From positions 1 to 64,000 of the forward strand of contig NZ_JAKQZG010000015.1 of NCBI RefSeq assembly GCF_024359545.1: 64,000 nt of DNA. Reading direction: 5' to 3'. Of this stretch, positions 1 to 18,761 are shown one piece after another; the stretch's first letter is position 1, and the number at the start of each line of letters is the position of its first letter. Source of the DNA: Jiella marina. GTDB taxonomy: Bacteria > Pseudomonadota > Alphaproteobacteria > Rhizobiales > Rhizobiaceae. Below the pieces are notes generated by a model that saw nothing but the letters and a program-made list of their open reading frames with translations, made no database searches and was not told the DNA's origin. A program made the translations under genes and the position numbers.

Positions 1-64
1 GTCTTTCTGAGCAACCTAAGTGTTTAGCAAGTTCTGCAGGCAGTGTAAGTTTTGATAATTCCAT
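1..64 (-). CDS. Partial helix-turn-helix (excisionase/AlpA-like) protein, 5' end only
   Basis: Only the first 21 codons are inside the window, read leftward from an ATG at 64. The peptide begins MELSKLTLPAELAKHLGCSE, which has the spacing of the first helices of a winged helix-turn-helix domain of the small excisionase/AlpA type. A purine-rich GGGTGGA lies a few bases upstream as a possible ribosome site. Such genes are common next to integrases in mobile elements, which fits the recombinases that follow. The function is inferred from this short N-terminus, so the call is tentative. Confidence 0.45.
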   Translation of the reverse strand, partial: MELSKLTLPAELAKHLGCSER

Positions 65-929
65 ACAGTCCACCCGTAATAAAGAAAATTGCAAAAATTT
101 GTGCGGGGGTATCTTACATGCAATTGGCGCCAATGTCCCCCATGGGGTCTGGAAATCGCATATCGCGAAAAAACCTAGTACAGTTTATCCTGTTTCACCC
201 CCAATAACATTCCAATACGCAGCATTAGAGGGCCGGGTAACCCTTGAGATTTTGCGCAATCATGCGGTCGCATCTGTCTACCGCCATGTCTAAGCGCTGG
301 TAATCGCTCAGCCGTACGCCGATAGCGACGAAGAGCGGATAGATCTAATCAGTTCAAATTAAAGGGATAATCGCGCTCAGGCTCGTCTGCCACCTATTAG
401 GAATAAGGCGGTGGCTCTACAAGATTTCTCAATGTGTCGACGAGTGATGTTTTCACATACGATCTTAATTACGAGCGGCTTATCCCAGATCTCGGGTGCG
501 ATGCATCTGTGTCTTGGATAAGGCGGTGGATACAGATAAACTCATGAATCTCTGAGTGATATAGAAGATATGATACAGAATATATAATACTTGTATATAT
601 ACGGATACTGATACTGATTGTATGCGGATATATGATAAGAAATAGATAGCAACGGTGTAACATAATCACCAGTGCGATTTCATAACATTAGCTACACGGA
701 GATATTGCATAGGGTCGTATATCATGGCTAGTGCAGGACCATGAGCAATAGGCATGATCTGTAGCGAGATAGCTTTGTGTGGCTCTGGCCGTTCTTTCTG
801 ATAGCGATCGAAAGCGCGGAGCTGGAGGCAATACTCAAGGCAGGTGGATCAGAAGTGCCATCTATCGGAGTTTACAAATTGCCAAACGAACGTTATGCCA
901 TTTGTGAACTCGCAGGAGCATGTGGTCCC
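65..929. other. AT-rich intergenic region of the mobile element
   Basis: No convincing gene is visible on either strand. The stretch from about 530 to 680 is strikingly AT-rich for this window, with TATA-type runs around 575-605, unlike the GC-rich chromosome to the right. It separates the divergent helix-turn-helix gene and the serine recombinase, so it may hold promoters for both. A short sequence, AAGGCGGTGG, occurs near 405 and again near 522. I see no tRNA or clear attachment repeat here. Confidence 0.5.
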
Positions 930-1634
930 ATGGCAAGCGAAGCAGCTATCCCGGCAAGTCGGTATGTTACCTATCTCAGAGTCTCTACGACGAAGCAGGG
1001 CGGGAGCGGGCTCGGTATCGAAGCTCAGAGAGAAGCTGTTGAACGGTATCTTCGGACCTGCGGTACGGATGTTCGTCCACTAGCCGAGTACGTCGAAATC
1101 GAGAGCGGTAAAAAAGCTGATCGTCCGAAGCTGAGGCAGGCAATCGAACATGCACAGCTTGCAGGTGCGCGGCTAGTGATCGCTAAGCTCGACCGGCTTT
1201 CGCGAAACGTCCACTTCCTGTCCGGCTTGAAAGATGCGGGCGTCGACTTCGTTGCGGCAGACATGCCCGACGCAAACAAGTTGACGGTGCATATCTTGGC
1301 TGCAGTGGCGGAACACGAGAGAGAGATGATCTCGGAACGTACGAAGGCCGCGTTGCAGGCTGCGAAGGCGAGGGGAAAGGTGCTTGGCAATCCGAAAGGA
1401 GCTGAACACCTCAAGGGACGAGGGAATGCAGAAGCTGTGCAGGCGATTGTGAAGGGCGCAGACCTCAAAGCTGAGCGCATGCGTAGCACAGTGGAGCGTC
1501 TGCAGGCGTCAGGCACGACCACTGCTCAAGGTATCGCTGCTGCGCTAAATGCTCAGGGCATTCTCTCGCCAAGGGGCGGTCTCTGGTCGGCCACGACGGT
1601 TCAGCGCTTGCGGGGTCGCCTCGGAATGGCCTGA
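930..1634 (+). CDS. Serine recombinase (resolvase/invertase family)
   Basis: This 234-residue protein is a site-specific recombinase using a serine nucleophile. The N-terminal catalytic domain (about residues 10-150) shows the YLRVST motif with the nucleophilic serine at about residue 19 and the paired arginine two residues before it, and the conserved AKLDRLSRN arginine segment. The C-terminal part ends in a predicted helix-turn-helix region with the typical ...LNAQGILSPRGG...W motif of DNA-binding recombinase tails. I chose the ATG at 930 because an AGGAG lies 11 bases upstream; a longer frame opens at 777 but its extra 51 residues do not resemble the family. It lies inside the element bounded by the tRNA-Ile2 gene and may act in resolution or inversion, or be a passenger. 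Confidence 0.88.
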   Translation: MASEAAIPASRYVTYLRVSTTKQGGSGLGIEAQREAVERYLRTCGTDVRPLAEYVEIESGKKADRPKLRQAIEHAQLAGARLVIAKLDRLSRNVHFLSGLKDAGVDFVAADMPDANKLTVHILAAVAEHEREMISERTKAALQAAKARGKVLGNPKGAEHLKGRGNAEAVQAIVKGADLKAERMRSTVERLQASGTTTAQGIAAALNAQGILSPRGGLWSATTVQRLRGRLGMA

Positions 1635-2228
1635 GATGGGTCGCCAGCGCCCATAGCGGCTCTCTGAGGGGCGGTGTGACCTCATTCGGTATGGTTGGCT
1701 GAAAACGCCAGACGCTTGCCACAATCGCTCTATTGGCAGCATCAATTGCGTAGTCAGCTTGCGGACGGGCTGAATGCTGACCTCCGAGTGTCGCCAGCGG
1801 CTGCAGTCGGCCGATACTGGACTCTGGACGGGCGGCTTCGGAACGTACGCATTCGATAGCTGACGTTCCTCTCATGGCTGAATTGGCAGCACTCCCCTAA
1901 GTTCTTGTGGTTCGTTTCAGCTGTCTGCGACTGCGTCCAGAGCCATGGGCTACAAGATATTAGCTTGATGAGCTACGACCTCCGGCATTGCGACCCGAGA
2001 AGCTTGTCGCAATAGCCAAGTGGGACCGCTACGTTCGAGGCCTGCCTACTATTGTAGAAACCCTGGCAGACGCCTGATGCCGATGGTTTCGCGCTATAGG
2101 TTTGAAGGCTGCTGCTAGTCTTGCAGGGCATGCATGATATTGCCCTCAGGATCAATTGCGATTTTGAATTCAGCCCGTCATCTTGAAGCTCATGCTCAGT
2201 CCGCAATGCAAGAACGTGTGGGATCCTA
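1635..2228. other. Intergenic region, no supported gene
   Basis: Nearly 600 bases separate the recombinase and the membrane-protein gene. Several short frames exist on both strands, but none has a recognisable domain or ribosome-binding site. A leftward frame (1465-1875) overlaps the end of the recombinase and looks spurious. Base composition is intermediate between the AT-rich left end and the GC-rich cargo. It may contain the cargo promoter. Confidence 0.45.
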
Positions 2229-3359
2229 ATGATCGACTGGTCTCGCGGAGGATGGACAGGGAGCGTAAACCGCTGGGTGCGGCGGGAGGTGACCGAGCAG
2301 CTACGTGGGAACCCGGTTGCCCGCCGCGCCCGCTACGGGCTCGCTCATCGTGCGCTGCGTCGCCTTCTCGGCTCAAGCACCTTTGGGCGGCTCGTAATCG
2401 CGTACATGGCTGTAAACGTCGCGATGGTCACGGCCGAGGCGCTCAGCGCTTGGCTTGTCCCGACCTGGTTGCCTGCCTGGAGTGCCTCCGGCTCGGCGCC
2501 GGCGACCGACATCAAAGCTCTGGTGCTGAACGTATCGAGCTATCTGCTCGGCGCGCAGATCGGGCTGCTGGGAGTCATCTCGCTATCGCTGGCGCTCGTG
2601 ACATTGATCGCCCAACGCGAGGGATCCTCGACTGACGTTCAGGTCTACTATCACGAGTCCTTCTCGTTCGAACTCGTCGCGAGCTGCGTTGCCTTGGCGG
2701 CGGTGTTGTGCGCCCAGCTCCTCTGGCCTTTGCAGTTCTTCCTTCACCGCCTCGGGCTCGGCACCGAGCTCCAGTTCTTCAAGCTTTGCTTGTTGGGTCT
2801 CCACCTTGCCTGGTTGCTGGTAAACCTCGCGGCGGTGGCCTATTTCATCGCCACCACGTTTCGGTTCGTTCAGCAGTCTGCTCGCGAGACTCTTCGCGAA
2901 CGCTACACCGCCAACGTTGTACTGCCGCGCGATCTGACACAGCGGCTGCGCGAGCAACTCTATGGGCTCGCGACGAAGGAGCTCATCGGCGACGACGAGG
3001 AGGATCGGGGGCGCCCTACCGCAACCTTCGGCTTCGACTTCGGGGCGCCTTGGACCGTCGAGGTCGAGACGTTCTTCGATCGGCCGGCGGTGCTCCACGA
3101 CGTCAGGATGACGTGGGTGCGCTGGGTGCTGCAGCGCTGGTCCGCCCGGTGCGTCACAGCGGCCGCTCAGCAACCCACCTCGGCGTCGCACGGCCTTGGC
3201 CGCCATGGACCCTCGATTTGGTTCACGCCACAAATAGGTGGGGTACTACGGGGAAACGTTAGCTGGTGCCGAAGGCACGAAGGGGTTCCCCTGACTGCCC
3301 TGGAGAAGTTCGTTTTGCGTCGCGCTTTCATCTTCAGGAGCAGCCGTGATGAAGAATGA
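2229..3359 (+). CDS. Unknown four-helix membrane protein, first gene of the island cargo
   Basis: I do not recognise this 376-residue protein. A basic N-terminus (about residues 1-50) precedes four hydrophobic segments near residues 56-80, 100-128, 150-172 and 184-208. A soluble, charged C-terminal region of about 165 residues follows, with an acidic patch (DDEED) near residue 257. The layout, with a membrane block before a cytosolic tail, is loosely like DUF2254 membrane proteins, but no diagnostic motif settles this. Its stop codon lies inside the start of the next gene, so the two are almost certainly co-translated and may act together. The start is uncertain because no strong ribosome site precedes the ATG at 2229. 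Confidence 0.65.
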   Translation: MIDWSRGGWTGSVNRWVRREVTEQLRGNPVARRARYGLAHRALRRLLGSSTFGRLVIAYMAVNVAMVTAEALSAWLVPTWLPAWSASGSAPATDIKALVLNVSSYLLGAQIGLLGVISLSLALVTLIAQREGSSTDVQVYYHESFSFELVASCVALAAVLCAQLLWPLQFFLHRLGLGTELQFFKLCLLGLHLAWLLVNLAAVAYFIATTFRFVQQSARETLRERYTANVVLPRDLTQRLREQLYGLATKELIGDDEEDRGRPTATFGFDFGAPWTVEVETFFDRPAVLHDVRMTWVRWVLQRWSARCVTAAAQQPTSASHGLGRHGPSIWFTPQIGGVLRGNVSWCRRHEGVPLTALEKFVLRRAFIFRSSRDEE

Positions 3360-5676
3360 GCTCCCCAGGCCCGAGGAAATCCTTGAAGAATTGGCCGATA
3401 AGGCAGCTGCGCAGATCGAGCGCCTCGCCCCGGTCGCCTTCGACGGCGCATTCCGCGAGATGACCCGATATCATCGCTTCTTGCTGGCGCTAGGAGCCTC
3501 GCGCGACCCGAGCGGTGCTGCTTTCAACTTCGCCGAAATCGCGGGGTACGCGTGGCACGCGCCACACAAGGAGTGGATTAGGCAATACCGTCGTTTGTTC
3601 GAGCGTGCCGCCGACAGGCTCGTTGACGACAGTCATTTCGTTCGATCCCTCGCCTACGTTCCCGGCCGACTGATGCCAGGATCCGGAGACCCCGAGCTGT
3701 CGCCAAACGTGGTGCGCGCGATCTTGGGCCTCGGTCCGTTGCTCGTCGGCCGGCTCGAGGCCTGGGTGACGAAGCGCACCACGGTCGAGACCCATCAGGG
3801 GCAGGCCGCAGAGCCCCGGCTGGCGCTCGCGGGGTCTGACGCGAAGGCGTACGAGAACCTTCTTCCCGACATCGTAGGGGCGTGGGAAAGCCTACTCCGC
3901 TACCCGTCGTCAATGTACGGTTGGCGCGAGCGTGGCGAGCAGACAGACGTCGAGCGCTGGGCGGCATTCGGATCCAGCTGGCCCTTCCTGTGGCAGCACC
4001 TGACAAACACGGCCTACTGCCTTGCCTTGGCTGTTTGGAATGAGGACGAGGCGGGTGCCGCCCTGTTCCGCGAGGCGCTGGTGCGGTGGGCACATGCAAT
4101 TGACCCTCGCTTGGACGATCGAGCCGAGCTGCGGCACCGGCGTCTGCTCTTTCCAAGCATCCTCGACTTGAACTGGCCGGAGGCTAGCGCAAAGGCCGCG
4201 CCGCTCGGCTACGATTACATGCCGCCGCCGAACCCGGACCAGCTATTCTCAAGCGTAGCCCGGGGTGCACACGACGACACGGTGTTGCTGACGGCAGCGC
4301 TGCTGCTGTTCTGGACCATCAACGAAAAGCAGGTTTCTGACATCGGTGCACGCACTGCACGGGCGCTCCTCAGTCGGGAGGCGAGCGACGACCATCATCG
4401 CCATGCGGGCCGACGACTGCTGAGCTTCCGTTCGCTTTTCCTTGACATGCTGCGCCTCGAGATGGCGGGGGAGCGGTACAGCCAAGGCTCCTATACAGCC
4501 GACCTCGACAACTCCGTCGCATTGCTCGATAACATGACAGAGCGTCGCGTGGTGCCAGGGCGAGTGTTCACGCCCTCCACGCTGCACGGCCGCGACGGCC
4601 TCCTGTCGTCTGATCTTGTGATCCTGCTGGCGCACGTTCCGTACGAGGGTGACGACGGTCTAAAGGAGCGGATCACCGCACTCGCGCACGAAGAGGAGGT
4701 GTTGCCTGAAGGCGATGGGTCGCTGCGAGACATCCTCCACCAGCTCGGGCGGTTTCAGTCGACGTTGGAGCAGCCGTTTTCCGCGCTTGATCGCGGCGTT
4801 CAGCTTCTTTCGCCAGACTGCGATGCTGAGCAGGCGAAGGCTCGACTGCTGGTGATCGTCAACGAGGTCTCGAACGTGATCGAGGAGAAGCGGCGGCACC
4901 GACTTCAGATACGTCCTGCCGATCCTGCGAAGCTGGAGCGTTTTCGCTCGGCGATAGAAGAAGCGCTGCTGACCTCGGAAGTGGAAGCGCCCTTTTTCCG
5001 CGGTGTGGTGGTCGGTCGGGGCGCCGAAGGCGACGGCGCCGAGTGGCGTGACCTGACTTTCTCGGGAATCGGTAAGGCACAGCTTACCGAGCCGCCGATG
5101 GAGTCGCTGAGCTCCCACTTCGAGGAGATGCTGGTTTCCGGCTCCCGCGAGATGGCGGGTAGGCACGCCTGGGCTGCGTTCCGCCAGCGCCCGCGCACCA
5201 AGGTGACAGTCGCGGGTCGGGCGGAAGAGGAGGCATTCTGGCGCGATTTGCGTCCCCTCGTCCAGAAAGTCGGTCCCGAGCCCGCGCTCGTCGTCTCGCA
5301 CCACCCCGAGGGCCGGGCGTTGCGACGGTTTCTCTATGCGCCGGCTGCAGATCGCCCGGAACTTGCGATCGAGCAGCGTCCTCGCGCGGTCAGAGGGGAG
5401 TCCTATATCGCCACGATTGAGGGCGTCGACGTGTTCGGCGCAGACCTCCCACCAGGTGAGGCATGGCTGTTCTCCGCAACGTCGCTTCGCGAGGTGCGAT
5501 ACGCCAAGACAACACCTCCTGATCGCTACGCCGAGCTGACGTTTGAGCTGGGCGAAGATATGAAAGGCACGCTTCGTGTCCGGGTGCGTCAGGCGCTGAA
5601 ATGGGCGGACACCCCGACGTTCGAACTCAATGCACCTGATCCGACGGCCGAAGGCGGAATAGAAGATCCAGTATAG
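3349..5676 (+). CDS. Unknown large soluble protein, second gene of the island cargo
   Basis: This 775-residue protein has no signal peptide or membrane segment and no catalytic motif that I recognise. It is rich in charged helical sequence; the first 500 residues look alpha-helical and the last 200 look more mixed, with beta-type segments such as RGESYIATIEGVDVFG. The ATG at 3349 is preferred over the GTG at 3346 because an AGGAG at 3336-3340 is then eight bases away. The start overlaps the end of the membrane-protein gene by 11 bases. A membrane protein paired with a large cytosolic partner on a tRNA-integrated element is a layout seen in anti-phage systems, but that role is only inference here. 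Confidence 0.7.
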   Translation: MKNELPRPEEILEELADKAAAQIERLAPVAFDGAFREMTRYHRFLLALGASRDPSGAAFNFAEIAGYAWHAPHKEWIRQYRRLFERAADRLVDDSHFVRSLAYVPGRLMPGSGDPELSPNVVRAILGLGPLLVGRLEAWVTKRTTVETHQGQAAEPRLALAGSDAKAYENLLPDIVGAWESLLRYPSSMYGWRERGEQTDVERWAAFGSSWPFLWQHLTNTAYCLALAVWNEDEAGAALFREALVRWAHAIDPRLDDRAELRHRRLLFPSILDLNWPEASAKAAPLGYDYMPPPNPDQLFSSVARGAHDDTVLLTAALLLFWTINEKQVSDIGARTARALLSREASDDHHRHAGRRLLSFRSLFLDMLRLEMAGERYSQGSYTADLDNSVALLDNMTERRVVPGRVFTPSTLHGRDGLLSSDLVILLAHVPYEGDDGLKERITALAHEEEVLPEGDGSLRDILHQLGRFQSTLEQPFSALDRGVQLLSPDCDAEQAKARLLVIVNEVSNVIEEKRRHRLQIRPADPAKLERFRSAIEEALLTSEVEAPFFRGVVVGRGAEGDGAEWRDLTFSGIGKAQLTEPPMESLSSHFEEMLVSGSREMAGRHAWAAFRQRPRTKVTVAGRAEEEAFWRDLRPLVQKVGPEPALVVSHHPEGRALRRFLYAPAADRPELAIEQRPRAVRGESYIATIEGVDVFGADLPPGEAWLFSATSLREVRYAKTTPPDRYAELTFELGEDMKGTLRVRVRQALKWADTPTFELNAPDPTAEGGIEDPV

Positions 5677-5933
5677 ACTCTGCCCCCACCATACCGGGCG
5701 TTACGGTATCCAGAGCTACGTAGAGCAGCATCATATCTCAGGTTAGTCCCGTTGTGGCTTCGTAGCGACCGCTCTTGAGAGATGAACGAGGCGTCCCGAA
5801 CGACCGAGATGGGCGCATTCCAGCCGCCAAGCTGAACTGAGCGGGTTTGGCGAACCCTTTAGCGCTCAGAAGCTCGCCAGAAGGCAGATCGGCAGTGTGC
5901 CGTAAGAAGGGATGCTTAGCGCCCTAACGCCTC

Positions 5934-7589
5934 TCACTGGCGCTCTATGGCTTGCTGAGAGGCATCGAAGCCAAAGCGCAGCTCCTCCAGCGCCCGCGAT
6001 AGCTGCGGGAGGGTATATCCCGCCTTCATGTAGTGCTGATGTGTCACACCCTGCTGGGCATGGCCGACAATGGCTTTGATGATTGGGTCGGCTACGTCGG
6101 CCTGTGCGAGCGCTGTAATGACCGTATGCCTGAAGCTGTGGAATACGAGGCCCGGACGCTTGATCTGCAGCTCGACTAAAAAGCGGTCGTTGAACCAGCG
6201 TCCTAACGTTCGGCCCCATCCGTTCTTCGGGCAGTAGGTGAACTCGTCGAATAGCTTTGTGTGGCCGTCCTGTCTAAGCTTCTGTACATGCTCGATGAAG
6301 CCGAGCCGTATCAATGCCGAATGGACAGGAACGAGCCGCTTCGCAGCCTGCGTCTTGAGGTGCGTTCCATCCCCAAGATCGTTGATGTCGAAGTACCATC
6401 GGCCATCCGCATCCTGCTTGATGTCATCGAGGTAAATCTGCGCGATCTCATTCAGACGAGCGCCAGTATAAAGGCCGATGAGCGGTCCCCACTTCTGGTA
6501 GGGCTTCCGAGGGGAGCTGTAATGGCCAGTTTCGACGGCCGTCAGGATGGTCCGTACCTGATCGGCAGTGAACGCCTCCCTGTCGCCTGTACTCTGTTTC
6601 CTGTTCATCCGCACTGCAGAGCCGGCGAACAGTTCCACATCGTGATGGCCGTTGCCCTTCGCCCACTTGAAGAGGTCCGAGTACGTCTGCAGATACTTGT
6701 TGATCGTCGTTACGCTGATCTTGTCCGTATCTGAAACGGCCAGCGCCTCAGAGAGCGACTTGTTGCGTGTCTGAGGATTCTTGTTGCGGTTCTTCGGGTA
6801 GGAAAGCAGCACGTTCTTAACTCGTGCCGCGTCCTGTGTGGTGAGCTGCCGGGTATCTGTATTGGACCCGAGTATCTCGAAAAGCAGGCGGAAGTGGTCG
6901 GCCCTCTCGATCGTCGTCTTCTCCGACCATGCCTTCGCTCGTAAGCGTTCCTCCGTATGGCTTTTTACCAGTTCAGAAAGAGGAATCGAGACGGCATCGG
7001 CTTCCGTCGCGCCTGACAAGGCATTCGTATTCGCTGGCTCGTCATACGCGTATGTTTCGAGCCGTTGATCGTAAGCCAGGATGTTTTTGCAGTAGTCTCT
7101 ATAGGCTCGGCTGAACTCCGCTCGCAGCGTTCCGTACGCCGGAGAATCTTTCGTAACTGGCAGCTCGTACTTCTCGATAAAGCTGCTGAGGTGCACGTCG
7201 TCATCTTGTCCGGGAATAAGGGGATAGTCGTTGAGCACTGCGTGTGTTGCAAAACTCACTCCGGCTTCACCGGCTGATTTCTCCGAGGCCGTAAGCCGGC
7301 CGTGCTCGTTCATATGCCTCTGCCGTTTCCGTAGCAGTTCTTGGAAATGGCGGGTGAGGACGCCTCTGATTTCGCTGTAGTTCATGCTCTGCACTGCTGG
7401 CCGACTCAACACCGTCTCTCCACTACAGCTAAGCGCACGCGCCAGTTTCACGGCCAGCGTCGCATTGCTCGTCTGCAACGACAGTTTGACCGTACTTGCT
7501 TTCTGCTCTGGATGCAGCCGCCATGGGATCGGGAATCGTAGATAGTAGATGCCGTGTCGCGAGAGCGTGAGATAGCTCGGATTATGCAT
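5934..7589 (-). CDS. Tyrosine recombinase/phage-type integrase with DUF6538-like N-terminus
   Basis: This 551-residue integrase would catalyse insertion and excision of the element. The N-terminus, beginning MHNPSYLTLSRHGIYYLRF, matches the DUF6538 module found at the front of many alphaproteobacterial integrases. A SAM-like core-binding region lies near residues 205-330. The catalytic domain shows the first arginine in TGARLNE, the HSFRH box, a histidine in VGHAQQG, and the tyrosine nucleophile in HQHYMKAGYT. It reads away from the tRNA-Ile2 gene, whose 3' end is 67 bases from the start codon, the usual arrangement for a tRNA-targeting integrase. The length and all key residues appear intact, so it is probably functional. 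Confidence 0.93.
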   Translation of the reverse strand: MHNPSYLTLSRHGIYYLRFPIPWRLHPEQKASTVKLSLQTSNATLAVKLARALSCSGETVLSRPAVQSMNYSEIRGVLTRHFQELLRKRQRHMNEHGRLTASEKSAGEAGVSFATHAVLNDYPLIPGQDDDVHLSSFIEKYELPVTKDSPAYGTLRAEFSRAYRDYCKNILAYDQRLETYAYDEPANTNALSGATEADAVSIPLSELVKSHTEERLRAKAWSEKTTIERADHFRLLFEILGSNTDTRQLTTQDAARVKNVLLSYPKNRNKNPQTRNKSLSEALAVSDTDKISVTTINKYLQTYSDLFKWAKGNGHHDVELFAGSAVRMNRKQSTGDREAFTADQVRTILTAVETGHYSSPRKPYQKWGPLIGLYTGARLNEIAQIYLDDIKQDADGRWYFDINDLGDGTHLKTQAAKRLVPVHSALIRLGFIEHVQKLRQDGHTKLFDEFTYCPKNGWGRTLGRWFNDRFLVELQIKRPGLVFHSFRHTVITALAQADVADPIIKAIVGHAQQGVTHQHYMKAGYTLPQLSRALEELRFGFDASQQAIERQ

Positions 7590-7655
7590 TACGATGTCTC
7601 ACCGGAATGTCTCACCGATGAAAACCGTACGCAAGTTCTTGATCTTACAGGCGTT

Positions 7656-7690
7656 TGGTGGGCCCGGAGGGACTCGAACCCCCAACCAAG
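7656..7690 (-). other. Inferred attachment site in the 3' part of the tRNA gene
   Basis: The integrase gene starts 67 bases beyond the 3' end of this tRNA and reads away from it. Tyrosine integrases commonly use the T-arm and acceptor 3' half of a tRNA as their attachment core and restore the tRNA on insertion. I looked for a matching copy of this segment between 1 and 5930 and did not find one, so the other junction is probably left of the window. The exact core is not defined. Confidence 0.4.
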
Positions 7691-7731
7691 CGGTTATGAG
7701 CCGCCGGCTCTAACCATTGAGCTACAGGCCC
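7656..7731 (-). tRNA. tRNA-Ile2, anticodon CAU (lysidine-type)
   Basis: Read on the minus strand, the 76 bases fold as a tRNA: a seven-pair acceptor stem (GGGCCTG with CGGGCCC), D-stem GCTC/GAGC, anticodon stem GGCGG/CCGCT, loop CTCATAA and T-arm GGGGG-TTCGAGT-CCCTC, ending in an encoded CCA. The anticodon is CAU. The body resembles bacterial tRNA-Ile2 (the AUA-reading tRNA whose C34 is modified by TilS) rather than elongator or initiator tRNA-Met: the segment GGTTAGAGC-N-GGCG-N-CTCATAA and the following CGCTTGGT are characteristic. Its 3' end borders the integrase. Confidence 0.93.
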
Positions 7732-8255
7732 GCCCGTGCAGGATTCGTTCTGCTTCCGTCTTTGACGCCGAGCGACCGCCCGAGGGTTGGTCGCAGAGGT
7801 TTCGACGGCATACGCCCTGCAAGCGAACCGATAGCGAGTTCCGGCTGAAAGTGCCAGACCAAAACGACGGACGAGCTCGATTCGGATGGGCGGAGGATGT
7901 GCGCTGAACTCGCGGTTCGGGCGATCTGGCAATTCGACGCGTCCTTCGTGTCGGTTCCGGCGCTTGGAGCCGGTCCGTTGCGTGTCGCGGGCGCAAGGGA
8001 GCGTTTCCGCCCATGGCGGCCGGTCAAACAATTGGGAGACGGGCGGCCGTCATGGATCGGCCCCATTGCAGCCTCAGAAAACCTTTCCAACATATGCTGG
8101 TAGGGCACCCTCATCCATCAGAGTGATGGGTGCGAATTGCAGATCGCTTTCGAGCACGCGACGGCATGACGTCGCCGTCCAGAAGGCGCAAGAAGAAGCG
8201 AGCTCGCCAGCGCGAAGACGAAGGGCGAACTTCGAAGAGAGGAAGCCTCCAGACG
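7732..8255. other. Intergenic region between tRNA-Ile2 and lolA
   Basis: About 520 bases lie between the tRNA and the lolA start. Short frames exist on both strands, but none has a credible domain or ribosome site. A possible N-terminal extension of lolA from 8130 is very basic and out of keeping with a secreted protein, so I leave it out. The region should hold the promoters for the leftward tRNA and the rightward lolA gene. In related rhizobia ftsK often precedes lolA; no trace of it is visible here. Confidence 0.5.
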
Positions 8256-8912
8256 ATGGCAGAATTCCAGAGATTTTTTGGCCGCGCTCGCAAGGGCGTG
8301 GTGCGGTGGAGCATCGGAGCCGTTGCGGCCGTGATGCTCGTTCCCCTGGCGGTGTCGGGCGCGAGCGCCCAGGGCAGTGGCGCGGCGCAGCGCATTGCCG
8401 ACCATTTCGCCGGGATCCCGTCGATGCATGGCGATTTCATCCAGTTCGATCCGAATGGTCGCCAGTCGGAAGGCAAGTTCTACATCGAGCGCCCCGGCAA
8501 GGTGCGCTTCGATTATGCGAACGCGCCCCTGCGGGTGATCGCCGACGGATCGACGGTCGCGATCAACAACAAGAAGCTCAACACGTGGGATACCTATCCG
8601 CTGTCGAAGACGCCGATGAAGCTTCTCCTCGACCGGCGGATCGATCTGTCCTCGGCGAATATCCGCAGCGTGAAGGAAGAGCCGGATCTGACGACGATCG
8701 TCATGGGCGACCGATCGGTGTTCGGCTCGTCCTACATCACCATGATGTTCGATCCTCAGTCCTATGACCTGAAGCAGTGGACCATCCGCGATCAGCAGGG
8801 CAAGGAGACGACGGTGATGATCTACAACGTCAAGACGGGCGGGAACATCCAGGATTCCGCCTTCAAGATCCCCTATACGGCGATCAGCCAAGGCCAGACC
8901 GGCAACCGCTGA
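8256..8912 (+). CDS. lolA: LolA-family outer-membrane lipoprotein carrier protein
   Basis: This 218-residue periplasmic protein belongs to the LolA family, which ferries lipoproteins from the LolCDE transporter to the outer membrane. A signal peptide with a hydrophobic core runs to an ASA cleavage site near residue 36. The mature part has the family's opening pattern (RIADHFAGIPSMHGDFIQF), the FYIERPGKVRFDY strand and a conserved DLTTIVMGDRS...MMFDPQSYDLKQWTI region. The ATG at 8256 is preceded by a GAGAGGA ribosome site; an in-frame start at 8130 would add a 42-residue basic tail. The gene is followed by an inverted repeat that could end transcription. The next rightward gene, xthA, is a common neighbour of lolA in rhizobia, although here a reversed dehalogenase gene lies between them. 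Confidence 0.9.
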   Translation: MAEFQRFFGRARKGVVRWSIGAVAAVMLVPLAVSGASAQGSGAAQRIADHFAGIPSMHGDFIQFDPNGRQSEGKFYIERPGKVRFDYANAPLRVIADGSTVAINNKKLNTWDTYPLSKTPMKLLLDRRIDLSSANIRSVKEEPDLTTIVMGDRSVFGSSYITMMFDPQSYDLKQWTIRDQQGKETTVMIYNVKTGGNIQDSAFKIPYTAISQGQTGNR

Positions 8913-10926: not shown

Positions 10927-12084
10927 ATGCGTGGTCCCCATCGGCTTGTCGTCTGTTTCGACGGCACCTGGAACAATGCGGATACCAGCGGCGAGGAGGC
11001 GACCAATGTCGAGCGCATCGCCCGCGCCGTCAAAGGCGACAGCGGGACGACGCCGCAGGTCACGCTGTATCTGCGCGGTGTCGGGTCCACGGGACACCGG
11101 CTGCAGCAGATCGTTGACGGCGCGACGGGAAACGGCGTCGACGACAATATCCGCTCAGCCTACCAGTTTCTGGCCCAAAACTATCTGCCGGCCCGATTCG
11201 ACATTGAAGGGAACCGTATTGAGGCCGACGAGATCTTTCTGTTCGGCTTTTCGCGGGGGGCCTTTTCGGCGCGTTCGCTTGCCGGCTTCATCTCCAGTTC
11301 GGGCCTGTTGAAGCGTCAGCAGCTTCACCGGCTTGGAGACGCCTGGGACTACTACCGGCGCGAAGGGGAGCGGACCCCGCAGAGTTTTTGCGACATCTAC
11401 GATGCCGACTGCCACAAGGACATCACGATCCAGTTTGTCGGGGTGTGGGATACGGTCGGCGCCCTCGGCATTCCCACTTCCGTGGTCAACCTGCCGCTCC
11501 TCAACGCGGAGCATCAATTCCACGACACCACCCCCTCGCGGATCGTGAAACATGCCTATCACGCCGTGGCAATCGATGAGCACCGCGACGAATTCGTCCC
11601 GACACTCTGGACCGGAGAAGTCCCGGATGGCGCCGTTATCGAGCAGGTCTGGTTTGCCGGGGCGCATTCGGATATCGGCGGCGGATATCGCCATCGAGGG
11701 TTGGCAAATGTCCCGCTCCACTGGATGGCCGAAAAAGCAAAGTGCTGCGGGCTTGAGCTCGACTGGCATCTGTTGAACCAAGATGTGCCGGATGCCACGG
11801 GGCCGCAGCACGAATCCCGTGTGTCCTTCGGCTGGAAGGACCGGGTTACGCCAACGATCCGCCAGATCAAGCAGACTTCATTCGAAACGAGCTTCCTGGA
11901 GGAAGCGTATTGGCCGAAGGACAAGTCCGGCAACCGCCTCAAGCCGATCAACGAGTGCATTCACCCGAACGCCCTTGAGCGCTGGGGCAGGACGGTCGAG
12001 TTGATCCTCGACGAGGATCCGTTGAAGCAGGGTGATATCGTCTATGAGCCCAAGAATCTCGGCGCCGCTCGGGCTTCGGTTTGA
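10927..12084 (+). CDS. DUF2235 alpha/beta hydrolase (phospholipase-like)
   Basis: This 385-residue protein begins with the DUF2235 signature RLVVCFDGTWNNAD and carries the nucleophile elbow GFSRGAFSAR (G-x-S-x-G) near residue 110, an aspartate in FVGVWDTVGALG, and a histidine region WFAGAHSDIGGGY. DUF2235 is an alpha/beta-hydrolase domain found in Tle1-type type VI lipase effectors and in many stand-alone cytoplasmic proteins. There is no signal peptide and no type VI gene nearby, so an effector role is not supported. A strong GGGAGGAGG site precedes the ATG. The substrate is unknown. Confidence 0.82.
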   Translation: MRGPHRLVVCFDGTWNNADTSGEEATNVERIARAVKGDSGTTPQVTLYLRGVGSTGHRLQQIVDGATGNGVDDNIRSAYQFLAQNYLPARFDIEGNRIEADEIFLFGFSRGAFSARSLAGFISSSGLLKRQQLHRLGDAWDYYRREGERTPQSFCDIYDADCHKDITIQFVGVWDTVGALGIPTSVVNLPLLNAEHQFHDTTPSRIVKHAYHAVAIDEHRDEFVPTLWTGEVPDGAVIEQVWFAGAHSDIGGGYRHRGLANVPLHWMAEKAKCCGLELDWHLLNQDVPDATGPQHESRVSFGWKDRVTPTIRQIKQTSFETSFLEEAYWPKDKSGNRLKPINECIHPNALERWGRTVELILDEDPLKQGDIVYEPKNLGAARASV

Positions 12085-14374: not shown

Positions 14375-16690
14375 ATGGATCGCAGCGAAATCACCGACAA
14401 TCCGAAGATCGAGCCCTATGACGAGCCGACGGGCGGCTGGGGTTCCGTCAAGTCGCTGGTCGCGAAGTCCACTCAGGAGGGACTTCTGGCCTCCAGCGTG
14501 TGGTCGACATTGGGGGATCAGAACAAGGCCGACGGATATCAGTGCGTTTCCTGTTCCTGGGCAAAGCCTGCCGACCCCAAGCCATTCGAATATTGCGAGA
14601 ACGGCGCCAAGGCGACCATGTGGGAGATCACTCCTAAGCGCTGCGATCGGGACTTCTTCGCCCGCCATACGGTCACCGAGCTTCTCGAATGGACCGACCA
14701 TGACCTGGAGAAGCAGGGCCGGCTGACGACGCCGATGAAATACGATCGCAGCCTTGACCAGTATGTTCCGGTCAAATGGGAGGAGGCGTTCCGCGAGATC
14801 GGCGAGGAGCTGAACGCCCTCGATCCGAAATCGGTTGTCTTCTACGTCTCGGGTCGCGCCTCGCTCGAAGCCTCGCACATGTGGCAGCTCTTCGCCCGGA
14901 TCTACGGCTCGAACAACCTGCCCGATTCCTCGAACATGTGCCACGAGTCGACGTCGGTCGGCCTGCCGGAATCGATCGGCTCGCCGGTCGGAACCGTCAC
15001 GCTCGAAGACTTCGACGCCTGTGACATGATGTTCTTCTTCGGCCACAACACCGGCACCAACGCACCCCGCCTTTTGCATTGGGTGCAGGAGGCGCGCAAG
15101 CGCGGCGCGCCGGTCATCACCTTCAACCCGATCCTCGAACGTGGCCTGATGCGGTTCAAGAGCCCTCAGAACCCGTTGGAAATGCTGACGCCCGACCAGG
15201 GCACGAAGATGTCGAGCGACTACTACCAGGTGCGGGGCGGCGGCGACATCGCTGCCATGACCGGCATCGCCAAGGCGGTCTTCGCACTCGACGACGCGGC
15301 TCGGGAAAACGGCGGAAAACGCGTTCTCGACACGGATTTCATCGCCGAGCACGGACACGGCTTCGAAGCCTTCGAGGCCTTCGTGCGAGCCGCGGAATGG
15401 CATGAGATCGAGCGCTGTTCGGGCCTGTCGCGCGACGAACTCGAACATGTCGGCCGGGTCTATTCCAAGGCCGAGCGCGTGATCGGCAATTACGGCATGG
15501 GGCTGACCCAGCACCGCCACGGCATCGAGAACGTTCAGATGCTCTGCAATCTGCTGCTCATGCGCGGCATGATGGGCAAGAAGGGTGCTGGCATCTCGCC
15601 CATCCGTGGCCACTCCAACGTGCAGGGCCAGCGCACGGTGGGAATCACCGAGAAGCTCGACCTGATCCCGCACGAGAAGTTCGAGGAGTTCTACGGCTTC
15701 ACGGTGCCCAAGGAGAAAGGGCTCGACACGGTCGAGGCCTGCCAGGGTGTGATCGACGGCTCGGTAAAGGGCTTCGTCTGCCTCGGCGGCAATTTCTCCC
15801 GCGCTGCGCCGGAGACGGAGATGATGGAAGAGGCGTGGCGGAAGATGCGCCTCAACGTCCAGATCTCGACGAAGCTCAATCGCAACCATTTGCTGGCCTG
15901 CGAAAAGACCTACATCCTGCCGTGTCTCGGCCGGATCGAGAAGCATATCGAGAACGGCGTCGCTCAGACCGTTTCGGTGGAGGATTCGACGGCCTGTGTC
16001 CATGCCTCCTACGGCAACCGGGAGCCGGCCTCTCGGGAACTGCTGTCGGAGCCGAAGATCACCGCCGAACTCGCCAAGGCGACCGTCGCCGGCAAATCCA
16101 CCGTGCCCTGGGATGAATGGGTTGCCGACTACTCCAAGGTGCGCGACGCGATCGAGCGCGCCTATCCGGCCGACTTCAAGGATTTCAACAAGCGGATGGG
16201 GACGCCCGGCGGCTTCCATCGTGATATCGGCGCCTCCCGGCGCGAGTGGCGCACCGACACGGGCAAGGCGAATTTCCTCGTACCCGAGAGTTTCGACGTC
16301 GATCCCGACATCGATACGTCGGCGCAGGACGTGTTGAAGCTGATTACCGTGCGCTCGAACGACCAGTTCAATACGACCGTCTACGGTTACGACGACCGGC
16401 TGCGCGGCGTGCATGGCACGCGCATGGTGATACTGATGAATGAAGAGGACATGCGCCGGCTGGGGCTCACTAATGACGATCGCGTCGATCTGGAAACCCA
16501 CGCCGATGACGGCGTCCACCGCCGCGTCGAGAACTACCGGGTTCACGCATGGCAGCTGCCGAAGGGCAATTGCGCCGGCTACTATCCCGAGCTCAACGCC
16601 CTCGTGCCGCTCTGGCACCATTCCCGCCGTGCCCACGTGCCGGCGGCGAAGTCCGTCCCGGTGAGGATCATCAAGCGGCCGGTGACATGA
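14375..16690 (+). CDS. FdhF/YdeP-family molybdopterin oxidoreductase (Fdh4A-like formate dehydrogenase)
   Basis: This 771-residue protein is a member of the molybdopterin bis(guanine dinucleotide) oxidoreductases of the YdeP/FdhF group. It has a short cysteine motif (CVSCSW) near residue 58, long bis-MGD-binding stretches (VVFYVSGRASLEASHMWQLFARIYGSNNLPDSSNMCHE and FFFGHNTGTNAPRLLHW, quoted from separate parts) and a C-terminal dinucleotide-binding domain from about residue 640 (LKLITVRSNDQFNTTVYGYDDR). In methylotrophs such as Methylobacterium the related Fdh4A supports formate oxidation, which suits the H4MPT pathway in this window. Substrate assignment from the sequence alone is not secure; YdeP homologues are also linked to acid resistance. 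There is no adjacent electron-transfer subunit. It appears full length. Confidence 0.83.
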   Translation: MDRSEITDNPKIEPYDEPTGGWGSVKSLVAKSTQEGLLASSVWSTLGDQNKADGYQCVSCSWAKPADPKPFEYCENGAKATMWEITPKRCDRDFFARHTVTELLEWTDHDLEKQGRLTTPMKYDRSLDQYVPVKWEEAFREIGEELNALDPKSVVFYVSGRASLEASHMWQLFARIYGSNNLPDSSNMCHESTSVGLPESIGSPVGTVTLEDFDACDMMFFFGHNTGTNAPRLLHWVQEARKRGAPVITFNPILERGLMRFKSPQNPLEMLTPDQGTKMSSDYYQVRGGGDIAAMTGIAKAVFALDDAARENGGKRVLDTDFIAEHGHGFEAFEAFVRAAEWHEIERCSGLSRDELEHVGRVYSKAERVIGNYGMGLTQHRHGIENVQMLCNLLLMRGMMGKKGAGISPIRGHSNVQGQRTVGITEKLDLIPHEKFEEFYGFTVPKEKGLDTVEACQGVIDGSVKGFVCLGGNFSRAAPETEMMEEAWRKMRLNVQISTKLNRNHLLACEKTYILPCLGRIEKHIENGVAQTVSVEDSTACVHASYGNREPASRELLSEPKITAELAKATVAGKSTVPWDEWVADYSKVRDAIERAYPADFKDFNKRMGTPGGFHRDIGASRREWRTDTGKANFLVPESFDVDPDIDTSAQDVLKLITVRSNDQFNTTVYGYDDRLRGVHGTRMVILMNEEDMRRLGLTNDDRVDLETHADDGVHRRVENYRVHAWQLPKGNCAGYYPELNALVPLWHHSRRAHVPAAKSVPVRIIKRPVT

Positions 16691-16980
16691 TCGTCGCCAC
16701 GGACCCTTCGTATTGATGGCCTCCCGTCTCGGCTTCTTCATTGCCGGGTGAGACGCGGCTGCGTCTCACGGCCGCTTCAGGCTTCAGCCAACGTCCCACT
16801 GCCTCGGCGCTTTGCCGATACGGTCGAGGCGAGTGCTGATCCTTGTAAATTGGTCATACCACTTGAACATATCATGCCGCACAGCAGCAAAGGTGTGGCC
16901 TTTTCCAACGAAAGCTGCTGTTCGGTTTGACAGGAGGCTAGTCTTGTGCTCGAAATTGGTCTGACCATTGGAAACCACGC

Positions 16981-17736
16981 ATGAAGAAGCCAGAGAATTT
17001 CACGGAAACCGAGCCCACCCGCGGCACCGAGCGGGTGATGGCGTTTTTCCGTGACAGGATCCTGAGCGGCGAACTGAAGACCGGCGAGCGGCTGCCCTCC
17101 GAGCGCGAGCTGGCGGCGACCCTCAATGTCGGGCGGCCGCTCCTGCGGGAGGCCATGCGCTCGCTTGCCATGCTGGGTCTCGTCGATATCCGCCACGGCA
17201 GCGGGGCCTTCGTCGGCAAGGCCGATATTGCCGTCCTGACGGACTTCTTCACCTTTACGCTCGCCGGTGAGCAGAACGTGTCGGAAGACATCATGCAGGC
17301 GCGCATGGCGATCGAATGCCAGGCGATCCGGCTCGCCTGCGAGCGCGCCACCGACGCCGATCTCGATCGGATCGGCGCCTGTCTGACGGCGATCATCGAC
17401 ACGGTCGGCGACCCCAAGAAGGGTGGCGAAGCGGATTTCCGCTTCCACGCCGCCATCGTCCAGGCCAGCCATAGCCAGGCGCTGATCACGCTCTATCGCG
17501 CGATCTCAGAACTCCTGGTCAGAAGTCACGTGGAGCGCCGGCGGGTCACGTCCGGCATTTCCGAGATCGTCGACGATATCGTGGAATCGCACCGTCGTGT
17601 CTTCGTCTCGATCGTCGCCGGCAATGGCGACGAGGCGGATGCGCGACTGCGCGAGCACTTCGCGGTCGGCGACGAGATGCGCCGCAAGGGCATCATCGCT
17701 GCCTATTCGAGAGGTGGCACGACAAACCAAGCCTGA
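16981..17736 (+). CDS. FadR-type GntR-family transcriptional regulator
   Basis: This 251-residue regulator has an N-terminal winged helix (residues about 15-80) with the GntR signature LKTGERLPSERELAATLNVGRPLLREAMRSL followed by the IRHGSGAFV wing. A helical FCD ligand-binding domain (about 95-225) has metal-site residues in FRFHAAIVQASH and ESHRRVFVSI. It is the first gene of a rightward cluster with a TRAP transporter and an RpiB-type isomerase, with only 24 bases before the next gene, so it probably controls that locus in response to the imported compound or its product. Confidence 0.9.
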   Translation: MKKPENFTETEPTRGTERVMAFFRDRILSGELKTGERLPSERELAATLNVGRPLLREAMRSLAMLGLVDIRHGSGAFVGKADIAVLTDFFTFTLAGEQNVSEDIMQARMAIECQAIRLACERATDADLDRIGACLTAIIDTVGDPKKGGEADFRFHAAIVQASHSQALITLYRAISELLVRSHVERRRVTSGISEIVDDIVESHRRVFVSIVAGNGDEADARLREHFAVGDEMRRKGIIAAYSRGGTTNQA

Positions 17737-17759
17737 ACCAGAAAAGGGAGGAGACCTTC

Positions 17760-18761
17760 ATGTTCACATCCGTAACCGGCCGGGTCGCATCGGCCATGCT
17801 TGCCTTCGGCATGATGACGGCGCCACTGGCAGCCCAGGAACTGCGCTACGCCCATGTGGGCGCCGAGGGCGACATCCAGACGCGCTATGCGTCGGAAGCC
17901 GCCGAAGGGATCGAGCAGGCGACGAACGGCGATGTCACCGTCCAAGTGTTCCCGGCGAGCCAGCTCGGCGGCGTCGCCGAAATGGTCGATGGCGTGCGTC
18001 TCGGCTCGATCTCCATGGGCCATCACGACTTCGCCTCGCTCGCGCGCATCGTGCCGGAGGTTGCCGTCTTCAACGCGCCCTTCATCTACACGAGCGCCGA
18101 TCAGGCGCTGGCCGCGACCGACCCGAACTCCTCACCCGCCGTCCAGGAGATCAATGAGCGCCTCGTCGAGGAAGGCGGCGTCCGGATCATCGGCCGCATC
18201 TATCGCGGCGCCCGCCACATTTCCTCGAACTTCCCTGTCAAGACACCGGCCGATCTCGCGGACAAGCCGTTCCGCGCTGTTCCGCTCGATCTCTGGGTCT
18301 CCATGGTGACGGGCTTCGGCGCGACGCCGACGCCGGTCGAGGTGTCGGAGTTGCCCACCGCCCTGATGACCGGCCTCGTCGTCGGTCAGGAAAACCCGCT
18401 GACCATGATCTCGGCCAACAAGCTCTACGAGGTGCAGTCGCATGTCGCGCTGACCGGTCACATGCATTCGGTGCTGGCGGTCTTCATCAACGAGAACGTC
18501 TGGCAGGGACTCAGCGAGGAACACCAGGCGGCGATCACCCAGGTGCTCGACGAGAAGGCCAAGGAGTCGCTGCAGTGGGCGAAGGATTCCGAACAGGATC
18601 TGATCGCGGAGCTGAAGGACGCCGGCATGACCGTCGTCACCGAGGAGGACGGGCTGGACATCCCCGCCTTCCGCGAAGCGGTGCTGGCCCAGATCAACGA
18701 GGACTTCCCCGAATTCGGCCCCTATATCGAGCAGATCGCAGAGGTCGAAGCCGCCGAATAA
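17760..18761 (+). CDS. TRAP transporter substrate-binding protein (DctP family)
   Basis: This 333-residue protein is the periplasmic receptor of a TRAP uptake system. An N-terminal signal peptide ends near residue 26 (PLAAQ-ELRYAH). The body has the DctP pattern: VQVFPASQLGG, GVRLGSISMGHHDFASLARIVPEVAVFNAPFI, the ligand-carboxylate region KPFRAVPLDLWVSMVTGFGATPTPVEVSELPTALMTGLVVGQENPL, and a C-terminal helix bundle. The conserved arginine position in the last segment is consistent with an acidic ligand such as a sugar acid or a C4 acid. A strong GGGAGGAG lies before the ATG. It precedes the small permease gene by about 60 bases. Confidence 0.93.
   Translation: MFTSVTGRVASAMLAFGMMTAPLAAQELRYAHVGAEGDIQTRYASEAAEGIEQATNGDVTVQVFPASQLGGVAEMVDGVRLGSISMGHHDFASLARIVPEVAVFNAPFIYTSADQALAATDPNSSPAVQEINERLVEEGGVRIIGRIYRGARHISSNFPVKTPADLADKPFRAVPLDLWVSMVTGFGATPTPVEVSELPTALMTGLVVGQENPLTMISANKLYEVQSHVALTGHMHSVLAVFINENVWQGLSEEHQAAITQVLDEKAKESLQWAKDSEQDLIAELKDAGMTVVTEEDGLDIPAFREAVLAQINEDFPEFGPYIEQIAEVEAAE

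Follow-up and report, generated by a model that had tools for sequence, protein, structure and literature searches.

What is encoded by a pair of overlapping genes that lies between two recombinase genes in Jiella marina (assembly GCF_024359545.1)? We examined this pair, here called A and B, in the first 64,000 nucleotides of contig NZ_JAKQZG010000015.1 (the window). A first-pass annotation made from the sequence alone had singled out the two genes as cargo of no recognised function and as a candidate system for defence or another interaction with the host. Our tentative proposal is that A and B are the halves of one membrane-anchored protein that would defend against phages or other mobile elements, with a cytosolic sensor driving a membrane effector. 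The family, now unnamed, has no counterpart in the defence and domain libraries that we searched and is of a known general kind.

Properties of the A–B Gene Pair

Gene A (2229–3359, + strand) encodes a protein of 376 residues for which hydropathy predicts four membrane helices, at residues ~55–73 (2391–2447), 98–130 (2520–2618), 143–172 (2655–2744), and 183–214 (2775–2870), all on the + strand and followed by a soluble tail of ~160 residues. Gene B (3349–5676, + strand) encodes a soluble protein of 775 residues with no hydrophobic segment by the same measure; its open reading frame (ORF) opens at a GTG at 3346, and the ATG at 3349, which is preceded by an AGGAG-type ribosome site, gives the 775-residue product. 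The two reading frames overlap by 11 nt in the window. Overlaps recur in relatives: the frames again share 11 nt in loci L002, L003, L004, and L005, and the value is 8 nt for L009 and 4 nt for L017. Hydropathy and ORF coordinates agree with the initial description of a four-helix membrane protein followed by an overlapping 775-residue soluble protein, and the accompanying claim that the two are made together is supported.

The A–B gene pair is real. Chance ORFs are excluded because homologous pairs exist elsewhere and because the ratio of nonsynonymous to synonymous substitution rates (dN/dS) is low, at 0.12 for A and 0.16–0.17 for B when the window is compared with L002 and L003, indicating purifying selection. 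A block directly upstream of A (1858–2228, + strand) shares 74% identity with the block preceding A in the Azorhizobium locus L002. This block, in which no Rfam match was found, could hold a conserved promoter or leader.

Neither protein resembles a described family in the libraries searched. The best matches of A, to DUF4059 in Pfam (E 0.34) and to a holin in NCBIfam (E 0.14), are at chance level and far under the cut-off. B gave no match above chance in Pfam, PADLOC, PHROGs, or NCBIfam and none in PDB up to E 10, as expected from the earlier remark that it contains no recognisable motif. No defence-protein profile of PADLOC-DB 2.0.0 matched A or B up to E 1. Eight fused relatives were likewise without a Pfam, PADLOC, or NCBIfam match above chance (one PADLOC match was at chance level, E 0.2), and seven enterobacterial fused relatives were without a PHROGs match above chance. 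Profile searches of PDB with A, B, and the fused set returned nothing or chance-level matches only. No nucleoside triphosphatase (NTPase) family of Pfam was found in A, B, or the eight fused members, and the Pfam, NCBIfam, PHROGs, PADLOC, and PDB searches together yielded no known metabolic or transport family. Searches of open-access literature by accession and by topic, a scope outside which supplementary tables lie, yielded no paper on the A–B family; an earlier listing as a predicted defence cluster is possible, for example in the DefensePredictor study (PMC13092281). IbfA, an abortive-infection protein that is carried on a plasmid and combines an ATPase with a TOPRIM domain (PMC12111858), was considered and does not belong to the A–B family.

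A and B as Halves of One Protein

We collected relatives of the pair and examined their gene arrangement. The loci counted here are those that we opened, a sample and not a census, and the e14-like loci L031–L034 are counted once. For plasmids, a query with the L019 protein gave 42 matching records, 20 of them listed, and ten plasmid loci were opened (L009, L010, L022–L029). Outside the window, 25 loci comprise 8 split pairs, 14 fused genes, and 3 partial forms; the window adds a ninth split pair.

In the split pairs L002, L003, L004, L005, L009, and L017, and in the more distant L018 and L021, A lies upstream of B. Identity to the window's B is 86% in Azorhizobium (L002), 82% in Novosphingobium (L003), 59% in Mesorhizobium (L004), 52% on a Paracoccus plasmid (L009), 44% in Rhizobium (L005), and 36% in L017. 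The break is shifted in L021 (7090–10628), where the membrane part has a frame to itself and the next, overlapping frame encodes the A tail joined to B. Fused forms are single proteins of ~1000–1170 residues (~1040 in E. coli) and occur in L019, L020, and L061, on plasmids (L022–L025, L027, L028, and L029), on E. coli chromosomes (L030 and L031), and on IMG/VR contigs (L035 and L036); the L036 frame opens only at residue 18, and its start may be altered. The partial forms are a truncated A alone (L010), a 468-residue protein with IS66-type genes behind it (L026), and a 781-residue protein in L060 (8047–10392) that combines the membrane part with the beginning of B, with an integrase-like gene nearby as judged by eye. 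The C-terminal domain of B was not detected in L060.

Profile alignment with hhalign places A and B end to end on the non-enterobacterial fused proteins, A on residues 15–354 (E 1.2e-32) and B on residues 358–1103 (E 1.3e-66). Against the enterobacterial fused proteins, A aligns with E 7e-10 and B with E 1.5e-9, at a probability of 96%. Every full-length B that was opened is accompanied by an A part, on the same chain or in the adjacent gene, so that B was never met without A. Enterobacterial members are one chain, and most of the alphaproteobacterial members opened are two chains encoded by overlapping genes. A tree of B-like regions requires three changes between split and fused forms, of which two or more fall on branches with good support; their order is unsure given the long branches.

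Comparison of these sequences indicates that A and B belong to one membrane-anchored protein, encoded in two pieces at some loci, and are not separate components, because they form a single polypeptide in 14 of the 25 outside loci. For the same reason, we set aside a two-component toxin–antitoxin system. The first-pass view of a membrane effector with a large sensor, encoded by paired genes that are made together, therefore holds for the pairing and fails where it treats the two as separate components. The coexistence of split and fused forms provides a natural experiment on communication between the sensor half and the membrane half.

Mobility and Distribution

The window and the Novosphingobium locus L003 share 81% identity over 2229–5651, a stretch that starts with the first base of A and stops shortly before B ends, and this is the sole match when 16 kb of the window is compared with 22 kb of L003. 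The match to Azorhizobium L002 covers 1858–5733 at 87% identity, with a short piece behind it. Azorhizobium belongs to the Hyphomicrobiales and Novosphingobium to the Sphingomonadales, and their B proteins are 85% identical. These comparisons indicate that A–B moves between lineages as mobile cargo; its carriers include conjugative plasmids, phage-like contigs, and islands that contain mobility genes.

The A–B family is rare and patchy. The counts for order, class, phylum, and A each include the window's own genome. Matches to B were found in 4 of 397 genomes of the window's order, two of them by the C-terminal domain only, in 3 of 385 genomes of its class, and in 4 of 398 genomes of its phylum, one of which (G785) is a 60-residue match (E 2.9e-4). 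A query with A matched 3 of 376 genomes, and 2 of 360 matched in the class of G1055, itself part of the query. B was not found in the sampled same-genus genome G349. Transfer between orders, the lack of B in G349, and the lack of a family match all fit the suggestion that the pair is undescribed mobile cargo; the full-length homologues in the opened loci do not lie mostly in housekeeping loci.

Defence and Phage Context

Recognised or candidate defence genes occur in the fetched flanks of 12 of the 25 outside loci, and three more loci are phage-borne (L031, L035, and L036). The Rhizobium pair (L005) adjoins Avs3a (PADLOC, E 5.6e-123), and the fused gene of L061 has HsdR 80 nt away and HsdM on its opposite side. 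Candidate HEC-03A/B genes lie 3 kb from L020 (PADLOC), and a phosphorothioated-DNA restriction endonuclease is encoded ~11 kb from the E. coli chromosomal gene in L030. On plasmids, the neighbours are a type I restriction–modification system in the flank of the Paracoccus pair (L009), TrlF and an abortive infection protein (L022), SIR2, HEPN, and Abi (L023), Tmn 0.3 kb downstream (L024), a Ppl-type gene 0.2 kb away (L025), multiubiquitin/ThiF genes beside the partial form in L026, an LmuA-type gene 0.1 kb away with GajB and GajA of Gabija further on (L027), and an abortive infection gene (L028).

A search of 5426 E. coli genomes with the plasmid gene of L022 gave matches in 12. They are the L022 plasmid itself, one chromosomal copy at 92% identity (L030), and ten copies with ~75% identity across 70% of the query. 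Of those ten, the four that were opened (L031–L034) all have the gene for WP_024232539.1 in an e14-like prophage, with icd on one side and intE on the other; in K-12 this interval contains ymfD, ymfE, and lit. Taken together, the genomic context supports phage defence as the probable role of the A–B family, which agrees with the initial prediction of a candidate defence system.

Other genes in these flanks were recorded. Two ORFs beside the pair and Avs3a in L005 (12645–17030, 1461 residues, and 17564–18697, 377 residues), for which neither Pfam nor PADLOC gave a match, are candidates for further undescribed defence genes. The type I restriction–modification cluster of L061 also encodes a protein with a YbiA-like N-terminal part (14997–17108), and a TnsC-type transposition ATPase is encoded nearby (1550–2500). 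A DUF5677 protein (Pfam, E 1.8e-28) is encoded upstream of the fused relative in L019 (4155–5456). Downstream of the gene in L036 is a weakly STAND-like ATPase, just under the Pfam cut-off.

Proposed Function and Alternatives

Conserved residues in A point to a role for the membrane part. Among 25 members, near relatives included, Asn199 and Phe206 of helix 4 are invariant, Trp195 of the same helix and Gln110 of helix 2 are each kept in 24, and N28, ahead of helix 1, is kept in 23. Because the buried Gln110 and Asn199 are kept so strictly, the alignment suggests a function for the membrane part beyond anchoring the protein.

In the proposed mechanism, the four helices of A would anchor the protein in the inner membrane, leaving the A tail and B in the cytosol. 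B would dock onto the A tail; in the fused forms, the A tail runs straight into B. The helical region of B and its C-terminal domain would sense a sign of infection, and sensing would alter the four-helix part, with its Gln and Asn buried in the membrane, such that the membrane is opened or damaged and the infected cell halts before phage release. We infer the topology, the docking, the identity of the sensing half, and membrane damage as the output. With a little less assurance than the proposal as a whole, we suggest that A–B could represent a new immune protein family, in which a four-helix gate with buried Gln and Asn is combined with a large helical cytosolic sensor and an exchangeable C-terminal recognition domain.

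The C-terminal domain of B (residues ~575–765, 5068–5640, + strand) is also present in SNase-like proteins. It matches proteins of L007 at 102 bits and L008 at 92 bits, compared with 4.0 bits for the best of 1000 shuffles. L008 (328–1998, + strand) contains an SNase domain (PF00565, E 3.5e-6), and L007 (1477–2856, − strand) is similar by eye, with no match in Pfam; no Pfam family was found for the C-terminal domain of B. Based on these matches, the domain may be a recognition module. Both SNase-like proteins also contain, as judged by eye, a stretch resembling a signal peptide. The genomes of these two proteins, G182 (L007) and G158 (L008), were rejected as carriers of distant B proteins, since the common part is the C-terminal domain only.

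Several observations weigh against a defence role exerted through the membrane. No PADLOC, Pfam, PHROGs, or NCBIfam family above chance was found for A or B, and neither B nor the L020 protein was matched in 50,697 phage records. Structure prediction had been suggested for both proteins and for their complex; AlphaFold2 models were made of A and B separately, and both are poor, with a mean predicted local distance difference test (pLDDT) score of 48 for A (7 rows) and 42 for B (5 rows). Neither model is good enough to reveal a pore or an active site, so we base no argument on a fold. Ten of the 25 outside loci show neither a recognised defence gene nor phage linkage (L002, L003, L004, L010, L017, L018, L019, L021, L029, and L060), although among these ten the neighbours were scanned with PADLOC only in L003, L010, and L019. 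The scanned neighbours of L003 and L019 gave no PADLOC match, and an ATPase neighbour in L010 gave weak PADLOC matches only (best E 2.7e-5).

The enrichment on plasmids is also sensitive to how it is counted. As a control, we took a stretch half a plasmid away for eight of the ten plasmid loci, leaving out L010 (partial) and L027 (unannotated); both sides were scored by annotation only, with toxin–antitoxin genes excluded and PADLOC not run on the control stretches. Defence genes were annotated at five of eight case loci (L009, L022, L023, L026, and L028) versus none of eight controls (p = 0.026), in a comparison that is small and uses a word list drawn up after the case loci were seen and hence not blind. 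When an orphan N-6 DNA methylase is counted, the controls rise to one of eight (p = 0.12). Toxin–antitoxin genes, for their part, were present in six of eight controls versus two of eight case loci.

The conservation of B also tells against B as the sensor. D311, R370, and R406 are kept in 20 of 20 members, E181 and K577 in 19, and H218 and D234 in 18, and on the alignment these polar residues could belong to an enzyme instead. The main rival to a sensing B and a membrane effector reverses the roles: the membrane part would be a sensor or anchor, responding for example to phage DNA entry, and B would be the effector, an enzyme whose substrate may be nucleic acid or nucleotides. The occurrence of the C-terminal domain in SNase-like proteins favours such an arrangement as well. 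We nevertheless consider it unlikely, as no catalytic motif or enzyme family was recognised, the B residues could be structural, and the membrane-buried Gln and Asn are at least as conserved, which would be unexpected in a mere anchor.

Less probable again is that A–B serves the fitness of its mobile element, by plasmid or conjugation exclusion or by element maintenance at the membrane, and does not act against phages. Its presence on phage-like contigs, conjugative plasmids, and islands that contain mobility genes and its rare, patchy distribution would suit such a role, but the gene is also found on chromosomes beside Avs3a and inside a type I restriction–modification locus, and in the lit slot of a prophage. 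These sites weigh against an element-fitness role because conjugation or plasmid maintenance is not obviously needed there. That A–B has an ordinary membrane function, such as transport or envelope stress, and owes its spread on mobile elements to chance is very improbable: three Pantoea members from plasmids bear the annotation 'MFS transporter' and L002, L004, and L017 are without a recognised defence neighbour, but no transporter family matches, the four helices come with a very large soluble part, and the patchy distribution is accompanied by repeated defence or phage context.

Comparison with Known Systems

Four known systems come closest to A–B. Lit of prophage e14 excludes T4. The E. 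coli A–B gene occupies the same slot between icd and intE of e14-like prophages and would act like a prophage-borne exclusion gene; K-12 Lit, in contrast, is a 297-residue protein annotated as a cell death peptidase, whereas the A–B protein of E. coli has ~1040 residues and a membrane domain and matches no described domain. Tmn is a membrane P-loop NTPase defence protein. Like the fused A–B form, it is a large single membrane protein of plasmids, and the two are neighbours in L024; the L024 Tmn has a YobI-like NTPase domain, and no such domain was found in the A–B family.

Kiwa consists of KwaA, a four-helix membrane protein, and KwaB, and shares with A–B the combination of a four-helix membrane protein and a soluble partner. 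A and B have no match in PADLOC-DB 2.0.0, a release whose coverage of Kiwa was not checked, and B, at 775 residues, is larger than KwaB; we know of no fused Kiwa. RexAB of phage lambda also pairs a membrane protein with a soluble partner, and the gene in L036 follows a repressor-like gene (by eye), which is the rexAB position. RexAB differs in having no sequence match to A–B and other sizes, and in the fused forms of the A–B family.

The family is an unnamed one that recurs on mobile elements and near defence genes, in hosts that range from rhizobia to E. coli, where it occupies plasmids and prophages. The presence of an E. coli member in the slot that holds lit in K-12 puts its function within reach of plaque assays in laboratory strains.

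The Surrounding Element

The two genes that flank A and B in the window are both real mobility genes. The serine recombinase gene (777–1634, + strand) encodes a resolvase N-terminal domain (PF00239, E 2.5e-29), and the tyrosine integrase gene (5934–7589, − strand; PF00589, E 5.2e-11) adjoins a called tRNA-Met gene (7656–7731, − strand), the presumed attachment site. The window begins at the first base of its contig (C7), which leaves the far end of the element outside it. The 24-base tRNA end has a single exact copy in the genome and one further place, with 2 mismatches, on contig C1; no repeat of the tRNA end of 15 bases or more, a limit that a shorter core would escape, was found within 1–8300. 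No empty site could be read in G349, of the same genus, because its tRNA and the gene to the right of it are on separate contigs. Of the first-pass description of a tRNA-integrated element, the integrase beside tRNA-Met stands, and the direct repeat at the other border was not found in the genome or in 1–8300. Integration of the element at the tRNA is likely, with its far border beyond the contig start.

The contig end beside the serine recombinase (1–777) has a lower G+C fraction (0.43–0.47) and may belong to another element. Further into the window, 10927–12084 presumably encodes a DUF2235-type hydrolase, which it resembles.

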